This document shows, piece by piece, positions 20,740 through 26,276 of a stretch of 33,430 nucleotides of DNA (its first letter is position 1; each line of letters starts with the position of its first letter). The stretch covers positions 1 to 33,430 of the forward strand of contig JAGPDT010000032.1 of the NCBI GenBank assembly GCA_018057455.1, in the 5' to 3' direction. Under the pieces are notes generated by a model. The model made no database searches. It was not told the origin of the DNA and was given only the letters and a program-made list of their open reading frames with translations. Source of the stretch: Flavobacteriales bacterium. Its GTDB lineage: Bacteria; Bacteroidota; Bacteroidia; Flavobacteriales_F; PHOS-HE28. The translations under genes and the position numbers were made by a program.

Positions 20740-21447
20740 ATGCGCAACTTCAGGATCGACGCCCAGCCCGATGACGATACCTGCGGAGCCACGGCCCTGC
20801 ATGCCGTGTACCGCCACTTCGGCATGGACCACTCCTTGCGGGACGTCGTGGACCAAGTGCACCAATTGGAAGACGGCGGCACACTGGCCGTGCTGCTGGG
20901 GATCCACGCCTTGGGGCAAGGATTGCATGCGCGGCTGTACAGCTACAACCTGCGCGTGTTCGACCCCTCCTGGGATGGCTTGCCGGCCCAGGTGCTGCGG
21001 CAAAAGCTCATCGCCCAGACCCGGATCAAGGAAGGCAAGAAGCTGCATGCTGCCTGCCTGGCCTATGCGCGCTACCTCAAGGAAGGCGGTGAGATCCGCT
21101 TCGATGACCCCGCGCCCGGGCTGCTGCGCTCCTACTTCAACCGCGGGCTGCCGGTGCTGGCCGGGCTGAGCGCCACCTACTTGTACAAAGGCAAGCGCGA
21201 GTACGCCGACGCCAAAGGCCGCAGCGTATACCACGACCTGCGGGGCAAGCCCATGGGCCATTTCGTGGTGCTCACCGGCATGGAGCACAAACGCGTCTAC
21301 GTGGCGGACCCCTACCAGGACAACCCGCTGGCCGAGGGGCGCAGCTATGAAGTGCCCGTGGGCCGCCTGATCAATAGCATCATGCTGGGCATCGTCACCT
21401 ACGATGCCAACCTGCTCATACTCTCGCCCGATCCCTTCGAGCCATGA
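20740..21447 (+). CDS. C39-like cysteine peptidase, first gene of amidoligase operon
   Basis: 235 residues with no signal peptide. The triad of a papain-like C39-type peptidase can be seen: Cys15 in DDDTCGATALHAVYRHFG, His174 in PMGHFVVLTGME and Asp190 in YVADPYQDN. C39 enzymes usually cut leader peptides after double glycine; stand-alone forms like this one lack the ABC-transporter parts. It is followed at once by an ATP-grasp ligase, a GCS2 ligase and an N-formylglutamate amidohydrolase, so it more likely processes a peptide or isopeptide product of that pathway. Start at 20740 is where the family begins; the frame is open 34 codons further up without similarity. Confidence 0.88.
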   Translation: MRNFRIDAQPDDDTCGATALHAVYRHFGMDHSLRDVVDQVHQLEDGGTLAVLLGIHALGQGLHARLYSYNLRVFDPSWDGLPAQVLRQKLIAQTRIKEGKKLHAACLAYARYLKEGGEIRFDDPAPGLLRSYFNRGLPVLAGLSATYLYKGKREYADAKGRSVYHDLRGKPMGHFVVLTGMEHKRVYVADPYQDNPLAEGRSYEVPVGRLINSIMLGIVTYDANLLILSPDPFEP

Positions 21448-22949
21448 AAAAGCTCATCGTGGTACAAGACCCGAAGATCTTCAAGCTCGGCGCACCGGGC
21501 GTGGAAGTGGTGTCCAGCAAGGACTACCTGACCGACCCTCGGTTCGCCCAGTTGAAGAACACCCGCATCTTCAACCTGGCGCGCAGCTTCGCCTACCAGA
21601 GCCGTGGCTACTACGTGAGCCTGCTGGCCGAAGCCCGGGGGCACAAGGCGATCCCCAGCGCCAAGACCCTGCTCGACCTCAGGAACCCGCGCATCGTGAA
21701 GGTGCTCTCGCGCGACCTGGACGATGTGGTCCAACAGAGCCTGGGCCACAAGGAAAAGCACGACTTCACCCTCAGCGTGTACTTCGGCCGCAACGTGAAC
21801 CCGCGTTACGACAAGCTCGCCCACGAACTGTACAAGGTCTTCGAGGCCCCGTTGATGCGTGCCCGCTTCGTGAAAGGTGAGAAGTGGGAACTGCGCGCCA
21901 TACGGCCCGTACCGTACAAGGAGATCGAAGCCGAGCACGTGCCCCTGTTGAAGCGGTTCGCCGCCGAATACTTCAGCAAGAAACGCTACGACACCGCACG
22001 CGAGGACCGCAGCGCCTACGACCTGGCCATCCTGGTGAACCCGCAGGACAAGGCCGCGCCATCCAACAAACGCGCCATCGTGAAATTCAGGCAGGCCGCG
22101 GAAGACCTGGGCTTCCGCGTGGACATCATCGGAGCGGACGCCATTGAGCGAATGGGTGAATATGACGCCCTGTTGATCCGCGAGAACACCTTCGTGGACA
22201 ACCACACCTACCGCATGGCCCGCCGGGCCCAGCGCGAAGGCCTGGCCGTGATGGACGCCCCCGACGCCATCCTCAAATGCAACAACAAGGTGTATTTGGC
22301 CGAGGTGATGGAAACCCACCACATCCCCACGCCGCGCACCCTCATCGTGCACGGCGAGAACAGGCATACCGTGGGTGCGGCCCTGGGCTTCCCTGTGGTG
22401 TTGAAACTGCCCGACAGCACCTTCAGCATAGGCGTGGAAAAAGCCCGCACGCCCGAGGAACTGGAGGAGAAATTGGACCGGATCCTCACCGACAGCGACC
22501 TGGCCGTGGCCCAGGAATACATGCCCAGCGACTTCGATTGGCGCGTGGGCGTGCTGGACGGGCAGCCGCTGTACGTATGCAAATACTTCATGGCGCGCGG
22601 CCACTGGCAGATCTACAACTGGGGCAGTTCCACCAAGGAAGATGAAACCGGCGACTTCGCCACGGTGAACGTGGCCGACTGCCCCAAGCACATCCTTGAT
22701 GCCGCCCTCAAGGCCGTGCGCGCCATGGTGGGCGACCAGGGCCTCTTCGGCGTGGACGTCAAGGAACACAACGGCAAAGCCTATGTGATCGAGGTGAACG
22801 AATGCCCCAACATCGACCATGGCGTGGAAGATGTGGAGCTCGGCGACGAGATCTACCGCCGCATCATCGGATCGCTGAAACGGTCCATCGAGAAGAAGAT
22901 CGGCATCACCCCCTACGATGCGCCCCCGTCAACGGCGCCCAAAGCATGA
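21444..22949 (+). CDS. ATP-grasp ligase with RimK-like N-terminal (RLAN) extension
   Basis: 501 residues. Residues 1-190 are an extra N-terminal domain (MKKLIVVQDPKIFKLGAPGV, then NLARSFAYQSRGYYVSLLAE and RPVPYKEIEAEH) of the RimK-like ATP-grasp N-terminal type. Residues 195-270 are a pre-ATP-grasp fold. Residues 280-480 are the ATP-grasp: FPVVLKLPDSTFSIGVEKA (phosphate loop), AVAQEYMPSDFDWRVGVLDG, and metal-binding GLFGVDVKEHN (437-443) and YVIEVNECPNID (447-458). It should join a carboxylate to an amine using ATP through an acyl-phosphate. Substrates are unknown. ATGA overlaps link it to genes on both sides. Confidence 0.93.
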   Translation: MKKLIVVQDPKIFKLGAPGVEVVSSKDYLTDPRFAQLKNTRIFNLARSFAYQSRGYYVSLLAEARGHKAIPSAKTLLDLRNPRIVKVLSRDLDDVVQQSLGHKEKHDFTLSVYFGRNVNPRYDKLAHELYKVFEAPLMRARFVKGEKWELRAIRPVPYKEIEAEHVPLLKRFAAEYFSKKRYDTAREDRSAYDLAILVNPQDKAAPSNKRAIVKFRQAAEDLGFRVDIIGADAIERMGEYDALLIRENTFVDNHTYRMARRAQREGLAVMDAPDAILKCNNKVYLAEVMETHHIPTPRTLIVHGENRHTVGAALGFPVVLKLPDSTFSIGVEKARTPEELEEKLDRILTDSDLAVAQEYMPSDFDWRVGVLDGQPLYVCKYFMARGHWQIYNWGSSTKEDETGDFATVNVADCPKHILDAALKAVRAMVGDQGLFGVDVKEHNGKAYVIEVNECPNIDHGVEDVELGDEIYRRIIGSLKRSIEKKIGITPYDAPPSTAPKA

Positions 22950-24178
22950 GCGAACACAAGCCCTACGGCCTCTTCGAGGTGGCCGGCATCGAACTGGAAT
23001 ACATGGTGGTGGAGCGCGACACGCTGCGCGCCAGCCCCACCGTGGACCAATTGTTCAAAGACGTGACCGGCCGGATCACCGGCGATGTGGAGCGCGGCGA
23101 CGTGGATTGGAGCAATGAGCTCACCGCGCACGTGCTGGAGCTGAAGACCGCCAAGCCCACCGCGGACATCCCCGGTTTCCGTGCGAAGTTCGCCGCCGAG
23201 GTGCGCGCCATCAACGCCCTGCTCGCCAAGCGGGGCCTGATGCTGCTGCCCACCGCCGCACATCCGCTCTTCGACCCCTTCACCGAAACGGTGCTGTGGC
23301 CGCATGACCACCACGAGGTGTACGAACTCTACAACCGCATCTTCGATTGCCGCGGACACGGTTGGAGCAACCTGCAGAGCGTACACCTCAACCTGCCCTT
23401 CGCCAACGACGAGGAGTTCGGCAAGCTGCACACCGCCATCCGCCTGCTGCTGCCCATCATTCCCGCCCTCAGCGCCAGTTCGCCCCTCCTGGACGGCAAG
23501 CCCACCGGCTTCCTGGACGCCCGCATGGAAGCCTACCTGCACCACCAGGAACGCCTGCCCCAGCTCATGGGCAGCCTGATCCCCGAGGCCGTGCTCACCG
23601 AAGAGGAATACTACCGCGATATCTTCGCCCCCATCGGCCAGGCCCTGGCCCCCTTCGACACCGAAGGCGTCATGGACCATCAGTTCGCCAACTCACGCGG
23701 CGCCATTGCCCGCTTCGACCGCGGGGCCATCGAGATCCGCGTGGTGGACATCCAGGAATGCCCCGGCGCCGACCTCGCCATCGCCGAACTGCTCACGGCC
23801 ACGCTCAAAGCCCTCACCGAAGGGCGCTGGGTGAGCCAATACCTGCAGCGCGCCTGGCACCACAAGGACTTGCTGAAGCTCTTCAACAAGGTGATCAAAC
23901 GCGCGGACGGGGCACGGATCAGGAACCGCGACTTCCTGCTGATGTTCGGGCTGGACCGCACCGAAGCCACCGCCCGTGAACTCTGGGCGCATCTCTTCGA
24001 AGAAGTGGGCTACAGCTTGAGCGACGATGCCCGCACATGCATCAGGCACATCCTGGCCCATGGCTGCCTGGCCGGCCGGATCCTGGCCAAGACCGGCCCC
24101 AAGCCCGACACGGCGAAGGTCATCGCCGTGTACAAGGAACTGGCCCAATGCCTGCAGGAAGACCGCCAGCTGGCATGA
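22946..24178 (+). CDS. Carboxylate-amine ligase, GCS2 family (glutamate-cysteine ligase-like)
   Basis: 410 residues. The glutamine-synthetase-like fold of the GCS2 family is seen in FEVAGIELEYMVVERDTL (metal-binding Glu), DWSNELTAHVLELKTAKPT, HLNLPFANDEEFGKLHTA and GAIEIRVVDIQECPGADLAI. Family members couple an amine to the gamma-carboxyl of glutamate or a similar acid with ATP. True gamma-glutamylcysteine synthesis is one option, but no glutathione synthetase is here, and the surroundings (second ligase, peptidase, amidohydrolase) suggest a special product. It starts ATGA over the ATP-grasp stop and ends ATGA into the amidohydrolase. Confidence 0.92.
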   Translation: MSEHKPYGLFEVAGIELEYMVVERDTLRASPTVDQLFKDVTGRITGDVERGDVDWSNELTAHVLELKTAKPTADIPGFRAKFAAEVRAINALLAKRGLMLLPTAAHPLFDPFTETVLWPHDHHEVYELYNRIFDCRGHGWSNLQSVHLNLPFANDEEFGKLHTAIRLLLPIIPALSASSPLLDGKPTGFLDARMEAYLHHQERLPQLMGSLIPEAVLTEEEYYRDIFAPIGQALAPFDTEGVMDHQFANSRGAIARFDRGAIEIRVVDIQECPGADLAIAELLTATLKALTEGRWVSQYLQRAWHHKDLLKLFNKVIKRADGARIRNRDFLLMFGLDRTEATARELWAHLFEEVGYSLSDDARTCIRHILAHGCLAGRILAKTGPKPDTAKVIAVYKELAQCLQEDRQLA

Positions 24179-24867
24179 CCGGCCTCTTCCTCAGCTGCGA
24201 ACACGGCGGCAACCAAGTGCCTCCGGAGCTTCAGCACTGTTTTGCCGGGCACGAAGACGTGCTGGGCACGCACCGCGGCCACGACATCGGAGCGCTGGAC
24301 CTCTTCCACCGGCTTGTTCCGCTGGCAGCCGCATCCAAGTTCACCACGCTCTCCCGCCTGTGCATCGAGATGAACCGCTCCGAGGGCCACCGGCAGCTCT
24401 TCTCCGCATTCACGCAAGAGCTGGGACCCGGCCCCAAGCAGCACCTCCTGGCCCTGTACCGCTCCTACCGCGAAGCGATCACCGGGGACATCCAAGCCCG
24501 GATCGCGGCGGGCACCACCGTACTGCACGTGGCGGTGCACAGCTTCACCCCGGTGCTGGACGGTGTGGTGCGGACCGTGGACATCGGCCTGCTCTATGAT
24601 CCGGCACGCGCCGCCGAAAGGGCCCTCTGCCGCAAGTGGTCCGGCGCGATCCAACGCCGGAGACCCGGACTGGTGGTGCGCATGAACCAGCCGTACAAAG
24701 GCGTGTCGGACGGCCTTCCCACCGCGTTGCGCAAGGTATTCCCTACCCACTACGCCGGAGTGGAACTGGAGGTGAACCAGCGCTTCGCCAGCCACAACCG
24801 CATGGACCGGCAACTGGCGTCGGTGCTGCACGACAGCCTCGCTGAAGTGCTGGCGCAGGGGTGGTAG
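24175..24867 (+). CDS. N-formylglutamate amidohydrolase family protein
   Basis: 230 residues. The zinc-binding start LFLSCEHGGNQVPPEL (His10), HRGHDIGALDLFHRL (about 33-47), RLCIEMNRSEGHR and LHVAVHSFTPVLDG (His122) match the FGase (HutG-like) family. In histidine breakdown such enzymes release formate from N-formylglutamate, but here there are no hut genes. As the last gene of the amidoligase operon it more likely cleaves an N-blocked glutamate or an amide made by the two ligases. Start overlaps the GCS2 stop (ATGA). Confidence 0.9.
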   Translation: MTGLFLSCEHGGNQVPPELQHCFAGHEDVLGTHRGHDIGALDLFHRLVPLAAASKFTTLSRLCIEMNRSEGHRQLFSAFTQELGPGPKQHLLALYRSYREAITGDIQARIAAGTTVLHVAVHSFTPVLDGVVRTVDIGLLYDPARAAERALCRKWSGAIQRRRPGLVVRMNQPYKGVSDGLPTALRKVFPTHYAGVELEVNQRFASHNRMDRQLASVLHDSLAEVLAQGW

Positions 24868-24935: not shown

Positions 24936-26276
24936 ATGCGCACCATCCTTTTGCTCGGCGCCGGCCGCTCCGCCTCTTCCCTGATCCAATACCTGGCACG
25001 GCATGCCGCACAACAGCAGTGGACCCTCACCGTGGCCGAGCGCGACCTGGCCCAGGCGAACAAACTGGTGCACGGCGCCGGAGACGCCGTGCAGGTGGTG
25101 GAACTGGACGCCAACCAAGCGGAAGCCCGCGCCGCGCTCATCGGCAAGCACGACCTGGTGATCAGCATGCTGCCCGCCTTCATGCACATGGACGTGCTGC
25201 GCGATTGCCTGCGGCTGAAAAAGCACGTGATAACCCCGAGCTATGTGCCCGATGCCCTGTGGCCGCTGGACGCGGAATTCAAACGGGCCGGCCTCACGGT
25301 GCTCAATGAAATGGGCGCCGACCCCGGCATCGACCACATGAGCGCCATGCGCATCCTGGACCACCTGCGATCGCTTGGCGCGCGCATGGAGGCCTTCGAG
25401 AGCTACTGCGGCGGGCTGGTGGCCCCGGAAAGCGACGACAATCCATGGGGCTACAAGTTCAGCTGGAACCCGCGCAACGTGGTGCTGGCCGGCCAGGGCC
25501 CGGCGGCACGCTACATCCAAGAGGGCGAGCTCAAGTACATCCCCTACCACCGGCTCTTCCGGCGCACCACCCGCGTGGAACTGCCCGGCTTGGGCGCCTT
25601 CGACGGCTATGCCAACCGTGACTCCTTGAAATACCGCGGCATCTACGGCATCGCCGACATTCCCACCATGTTGCGCGGCACCCTGCGCAAGGAGGGCTAT
25701 TGCGAAGCTTGGGATGCCTTGGTACAACTGGGTTGCACCGAAGACGGCTTCAACCTGGAACTGCCTGCAGAAGCCACCTGGGCGGATTTCCTCAACGCCT
25801 TCCTGCCCGCACGTGCCGGGGCCGGCCTGCGCACGGCCGTGGCAGACCATCTCGGCCTGGATCCCACCGGTGCAGCCATGGAGAAGCTCGAATGGCTCGG
25901 CCTCTTCGGCACGGGTGCCATCGGACAAGCCGGGCTGTCCCCCGCCGCCACCTTGCAACGCCTGCTTGAAGCCAAGTGGGTGCTGGGACCCGCCGACAAG
26001 GACCTGCTGGTGATGTGGCACCGCTTCCGGTATGCATTGAATGGCCGCAGCAAGGAGGTGCATGCCGCCCTGTCCGTCATCGGCCAGGACAGCATACACA
26101 CCGCCATGGCCCAATGCGTGGGGCTGCCCATCGGCATCGGCGCCAAGCTGTTGCTCAACGGCCAGGTGCGGCAGCATGGCGTGCTGCTCCCGTTGGCACC
26201 GGAACTGTACAACCCCATCCTGGATGAACTGGCCACGTTGGGCATCGCCTTCCAGGAGCGCGCAGTGGAAGGCTGA
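24936..26276 (+). CDS. Saccharopine dehydrogenase (LYS9-like)
   Basis: 446 residues, close to the length of fungal LYS9. The Rossmann start is TILLLGAGRSASSLIQYL with the GxGxxx loop; DLVISMLPAFMHMDVLRDCL and VLNEMGADPGIDHMSAMRIL are family marks (the GaDPGIDHmsA motif binds saccharopine). The C-terminal part (ESYCGGLVAPESDDNPWGYK, FSWNPRNVVLAGQGPA) completes the dehydrogenase. It interconverts saccharopine with glutamate and aminoadipate semialdehyde; in Bacteroidota this is usually part of lysine breakdown. No lysine-ketoglutarate reductase lies in the window. Confidence 0.93.
   Translation: MRTILLLGAGRSASSLIQYLARHAAQQQWTLTVAERDLAQANKLVHGAGDAVQVVELDANQAEARAALIGKHDLVISMLPAFMHMDVLRDCLRLKKHVITPSYVPDALWPLDAEFKRAGLTVLNEMGADPGIDHMSAMRILDHLRSLGARMEAFESYCGGLVAPESDDNPWGYKFSWNPRNVVLAGQGPAARYIQEGELKYIPYHRLFRRTTRVELPGLGAFDGYANRDSLKYRGIYGIADIPTMLRGTLRKEGYCEAWDALVQLGCTEDGFNLELPAEATWADFLNAFLPARAGAGLRTAVADHLGLDPTGAAMEKLEWLGLFGTGAIGQAGLSPAATLQRLLEAKWVLGPADKDLLVMWHRFRYALNGRSKEVHAALSVIGQDSIHTAMAQCVGLPIGIGAKLLLNGQVRQHGVLLPLAPELYNPILDELATLGIAFQERAVEG

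Follow-up and report, generated by a model that had tools for sequence, protein, structure and literature searches.

A widespread cassette of RLAN/ATP-grasp and GCS2 ligases accompanied by predicted amide hydrolases in bacteria

The occurrence of two ATP-driven carboxylate-amine ligases and two predicted amide hydrolases in one run of overlapping genes raises the question of what these enzymes make or modify together. Such a run is present in a 33,430-nucleotide stretch of DNA from a Flavobacteriales bacterium (contig JAGPDT010000032.1), referred to here as the window. All four genes lie on the plus strand and, as a preliminary description of this DNA had reported, each of the three junctions is a 4-base overlap. 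The first gene (positions 20740 to 21447) encodes a C39-like, papain-fold cysteine peptidase of 235 amino acids (PF03412, Peptidase_C39; 8e-8); alignment with relatives backs a start at 20740 and not at the longer TTG open reading frame (ORF). The second (21444 to 22949) encodes a 501-amino-acid protein composed of an RLAN domain at approximately residues 1 to 180 (PF14401; 1e-45) and a RimK/LysX-like ATP-grasp ligase domain at approximately residues 190 to 485 (PF08443; 2e-7). It is followed by the gene for a 410-amino-acid GCS2-family carboxylate-amine ligase (22946 to 24178; PF04107; 5e-26) and by that for a 230-amino-acid amidohydrolase of the FGase (N-formylglutamate amidohydrolase-like) family (24175 to 24867; PF05013; 3e-20). 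All of these Pfam matches exceed the curated cut-offs and agree with the family calls made previously. A saccharopine dehydrogenase-like gene (24936 to 26276) starts 68 bases past the FGase gene; among the loci that we fetched, it is common to part of the genus only.

Alignments with relatives showed that the catalytic residues named in the preliminary description are real. Cys15, His174, and Asp190 of the C39-like protein are invariant, together with Gln9, in 47 loci, and His10 and His122 of the FGase protein are invariant, together with Glu9 and Arg61, in 33 loci. Residues K282, K321, D438, E450, and N452 of the RLAN/ATP-grasp protein are likewise invariant in its relatives, and E16, E18, E58, E65, H147, R193, E263, and R265 of GCS2 are conserved among cassette copies.

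The AlphaFold model of the C39-like protein (pLDDT of 87) matches C39 and other papain-fold enzymes with Z scores of about 15. The matches, nearly equal in score, include the peptidase domains of ComA and PCAT1, a C39-like peptidase, and the pseudomurein endoisopeptidase PeiR; the phytochelatin synthase Alr0975, including its glutathione acyl-enzyme, is tied with the C39 peptidases at a Z score of 15.1. The protein has no match to the phytochelatin synthase family PF05023 up to E = 1, and its relative at locus L185 matches PF05023 below the cut-off. The best fold matches of the RLAN protein are LysX, ArgX, and RimK (Z scores of 25 to 27), and because these matches span the ATP-grasp half alone, the RLAN domain is left without a fold assignment. 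The protein scores far below the LysX cut-offs and below those for RimK (58 versus 143 for the subfamily and 21 versus 331 for the equivalog). GCS2 aligns with Escherichia coli YbdK across its conserved motifs; its best GCS score is 58.5 versus a subfamily cut-off of 176, and all GCS equivalogs score lower. The nearest solved structure to the FGase protein is Atu2144 (2odf; 6e-14), not HutG, for which the protein scores 20.6 bits versus an equivalog cut-off of 278.75 bits.

We then asked how widely these genes are found together. Of 58 near relatives, 27 have RLAN, as do 44 of 395 genomes drawn from across the phylum. A scan with one genome per species detected RLAN relatives at a minimum of 588 loci among at least 592 stretches. 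The best 80 of these 588 or more loci include members of the Bacteroidota, Fibrobacterota, Ignavibacteriota, Balneolota, Spirochaetota, Omnitrophota, Planctomycetota, Verrucomicrobiota, Thermodesulfobacteriota, Pseudomonadota, Myxococcota, Tectimicrobiota, and candidate phylum Uhriibacteriota, with the usual binning caution for any single phylum assignment, as many of the genomes are metagenome assembled. The flanks of 60 loci revealed a fixed order and strand, C39-RLAN-GCS2(-FGase), often with 4-base overlaps. Removal of duplicates and of forms fused to a GNAT domain left a nonredundant set of 126 loci from approximately 13 phyla, most of them picked by RLAN, so that the following counts give the frequency of RLAN's partners and not the reverse: GCS2 is adjacent, after RLAN, in 119 of the 123 loci with room on the contig, FGase follows in 96 of 121, and C39 precedes RLAN in 84 of 122. 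Chance falls far short of explaining an arrangement whose order recurs at more than 100 loci in many phyla. The preliminary description had staked its joint pathway on homologs occurring together elsewhere, and they do. However, C39 and FGase are missing in some lineages; in three genomes of one family (G280, G252, and G409) with cassettes that lack C39, no C39 of this family was found anywhere. The core of the cassette is therefore RLAN and GCS2. The joint pathway proposed earlier is supported by the conserved order, with this pair and not all four genes as its core. The RLAN tree was built quickly and has long branches, so we argue for no horizontal transfer from it. Two contigs from the candidate phylum Uhrbacteria (L120 and L126) carry RLAN and GCS2 only, with RLAN proteins approximately 51% identical to that of the window, as a result of transfer or of a binning artifact.

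Additional genes found consistently beside the cassette could point to a carrier, a substrate, or a route of export. When flanking ORFs from loci beyond the host genus were clustered, lineage-level synteny alone emerged, with neither a further partner nor a conserved exporter or transporter, and a search of short ORFs across phyla found no carrier or precursor peptide conserved beside the cassette. The earlier remark that the window contains no precursor peptide or exporter near these genes thus extends to the flanks of relatives. Candidate small ORFs and partners were rejected because they reflected lineage synteny, were spurious ORFs on the antisense strand, or were the beginnings of the C39 or RLAN genes. 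A graspetide or other RiPP cluster was rejected as no small ORF conserved across phyla was found by the ATP-grasp gene, and a known anti-phage defense system was rejected as no PADLOC model matches any of the four proteins. A scan limited to sigma-70-type sites found no promoter. The cassette directly follows genes of the gldA-gldF-gldG-DUF4340 type in much of the host genus; this block precedes it at L051, L054, L058 to L062, L064 to L068, L070, and L104 to L106 and is not beside it in the window or the near relative L052. Stress genes adjoin the cassette in three lineages, namely, dnaJ and other chaperone genes in Fibrobacter (L116, 1498 to 7271), genes for an Fe-superoxide dismutase and a J-domain protein in Uhrbacteria (L126, 10608 to 11823), and an OsmC gene in Gramella/Salegentibacter (L175, 11413 to 11844). 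These cases are anecdotal and too few to carry weight.

Searches of the assemblies of seven congeners (G009, G010, G019, G022, G025, G027, and G029) yielded no hit for any of RLAN, C39, and FGase; G010 is a single contig rated 99% complete, and G029 is only 72% complete. All seven still keep a cassette-family GCS2 (L195 to L201). A search with a profile of these orphans found one such GCS2 per near relative, in a cassette or alone, with one split over two contigs. The flanks of L195, L196, L197, L200, and L201, which contain DUF4340 with LamG or a downstream metallopeptidase, identify the orphan as the remainder of a cassette in place; L198 retains the LamG side only, and the flanks of L199 are uninformative. 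Because L196 nests with the cassette-bearing L051, the tree requires the partners to have been lost at least twice independently.

The orphans differ in how far they have decayed. L195 and L196 keep nearly all conserved residues; a single one is changed in each (E18D in L196). Out of a panel of 30 residues, 14 are lost in L197, 19 in L198, 8 in L199, and 11 each in L200 and L201, and one or both of the ExE glutamates are gone from all five. The five decayed copies have a median pN/pS of 0.85 over residues 1 to 136 versus 0.33 for cassette copies; over residues 273 to 410, the values are 0.63 versus 0.54. These ratios are comparative only, as pS is near saturation, and long open frames come cheaply in a GC-rich genome. 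GCS2 is still intact in the FGase-less cassettes L051 and L057. The most economical explanation is that, without RLAN and C39, GCS2 catalysis is no longer of value, which indicates a dependence of GCS2 on these partners. The C-terminal half of the decayed protein may keep some use, possibly in a noncatalytic role.

Such decay, with a near-neutral core, following partner loss suggests that GCS2 is not an ordinary stand-alone ligase; had it been an ordinary gamma-glutamylcysteine synthetase, the joint pathway would have been wrong on the preliminary description's own terms. GCS2 as a conventional gamma-glutamylcysteine synthetase, with unrelated passengers for neighbors, would fit the GCS2 fold and YbdK-like motifs. 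Yet the protein falls far below every GCS equivalog cut-off, RLAN adjoins it across many phyla, and the host has no GshB; we regard this explanation as highly improbable, and stand-alone GCS activity in glutathione synthesis is rejected on the cut-offs together with the decay. The host genome carries one GCS2 and no classical GshA. A GshB elsewhere was rejected because the sole GSH-S_ATP match, outside the cassette, is a true RimK (355 bits versus a cut-off of 331). With an assembly 99.4% complete in 130 contigs, these absences are strong but not absolute.

What, then, might the cassette produce? At a probability of roughly 45%, we favor a cytosolic pathway for a glutamyl-linked small molecule, which GCS2 and the ATP-grasp enzyme would assemble and the C39 and FGase enzymes would open or recycle. 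GCS2 would use ATP to activate the carboxylate of glutamate, or of a glutamate-like acid, and join it to an amine, and the RLAN/ATP-grasp enzyme would likewise add a further glutamate-type residue, as GshA and GshB do in forming glutathione. Cys15 of the C39 enzyme would form a thioester leading to hydrolysis or transfer of the glutamyl product, as in phytochelatin synthase, and the FGase enzyme would cleave an amide beside a glutamate or aspartate carboxylate for recycling. The substrates, the order of reactions, the direction of the hydrolases, and the product are what we infer, as is the "making and trimming" of an amide-linked product suggested earlier. The near-constant adjacency of RLAN and GCS2, with C39 and FGase in most loci, is consistent with this pathway, as are the resemblance of the ATP-grasp half to glutamate-type ligases, the fold likeness of C39 to Alr0975, the lack of a conserved carrier, precursor, or exporter, the host's lack of classical GshA and its single GSH-S_ATP match, and the decay of GCS2 in five of seven partner-less congeners after at least two independent losses. 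Against it, phytochelatin synthase is no closer to the C39 protein than are plain C39 peptidases, and many loci lack C39 and FGase, so that the hydrolytic steps cannot be essential everywhere.

The resemblance to LysX, ArgX, and RimK fits protein tagging equally well. All three enzymes have proteins as their carriers or targets; RimK adds glutamate-type residues to S6 and RimB trims them, and GCS-like ligases are known in pupylation. By analogy, the ATP-grasp enzyme could add glutamate-type residues to a protein, GCS2 could add or cap a second link, with removal of the tag falling to C39 and FGase. The ligase RimK works alongside a trimming protease, RimB, and in the rlo/rim systems of Pseudomonas, as in the window, an ATP-grasp ligase is encoded with a protease (PMC12239564); those systems, however, have an aspartic protease and a membrane transglutaminase-like protein and lack GCS2 and FGase. 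The window protein also differs from LysX, ArgX, and RimK in its extra RLAN domain, and the LysW carrier of the LysX and ArgX systems has no match in the host (TIGR01206). Because no conserved target or carrier gene lies beside the cassette and a separate RimK is encoded elsewhere in the host, the evidence tilts slightly from tagging, which is possible if somewhat unlikely, toward the small molecule; a protein target may be encoded in trans. A salvage role, with the hydrolases degrading imported or damaged glutamyl or formyl amides and the ligases storing or detoxifying the released parts, would account for the two predicted amide hydrolases, and the FGase family includes deformylases of N-formylglutamate. 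We consider salvage improbable, since the conserved core comprises the ligases and not the hydrolases, no transporter is conserved nearby, and the FGase protein is far below the HutG cut-off.

Comparison with described systems places the cassette in a wider context. Iyer, Abhiman, Burroughs, and Aravind reportedly predicted in 2009, computationally, RLAN neighborhoods with GCS2 and papain-like peptidases. These neighborhoods share the RLAN-RimK-like ATP-grasp fusion and the GCS2 neighbor with the window, whose cassette is a member of this predicted kind; the peptidase there is said to be fused to GNAT, whereas the window encodes a stand-alone C39 without GNAT, and FGase is a frequent fourth gene in window-type cassettes. 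Among the papers searched, none dealt with the C39-RLAN-GCS2-FGase combination or assigned it a product. The breadth count, the division into core and accessory genes, and the decay of GCS2 are new here. In some Bacteroidota, a GNAT-RLAN-ATP-grasp fusion stands alone (L088, 6703 to 8709; L095, 6420 to 8609; L096 to L100), and at L101 an ATP-grasp relative adjoins a GNAT-DUF3335 protein; DUF3335 is often fused to GNAT, according to a 2023 review citing the 2009 amidoligase paper (PMC10318531). These forms have the RLAN family and a papain-like or GNAT partner in common with the window but, in the loci seen, no GCS2, C39, or FGase beside the stand-alone fusions and no GCS2 or FGase beside the GNAT-DUF3335 form. 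The window cassette is built differently but belongs to the same broad kind. The glutathione/phytochelatin pathway uses the same three kinds of catalyst, a GCS-type ligase, an ATP-grasp ligase, and a papain-fold enzyme. In contrast, the window GCS2 and ATP-grasp proteins are not GshA and GshB equivalogs, and FGase has no counterpart there.

A set that keeps its order and its two ATP-driven ligases in many phyla must have a generally useful product or target. Partner loss followed by decay of GCS2 in place serves as a natural experiment on the dependence of this ligase, and the clear RLAN-GCS2 core, together with cultured carriers such as Thiobacillus thioparus, Salegentibacter, Winogradskyella, Pontibacter, and Polaribacter, makes the product directly findable. 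A bolder combination, that the cassette makes an undescribed, widely shared gamma-glutamyl-type metabolite and that some relatives keep a catalytically dead GCS2 for its C-terminal half, strikes us as doubtful. Such a metabolite might stand in for glutathione in bacteria that lack the classical glutathione genes.
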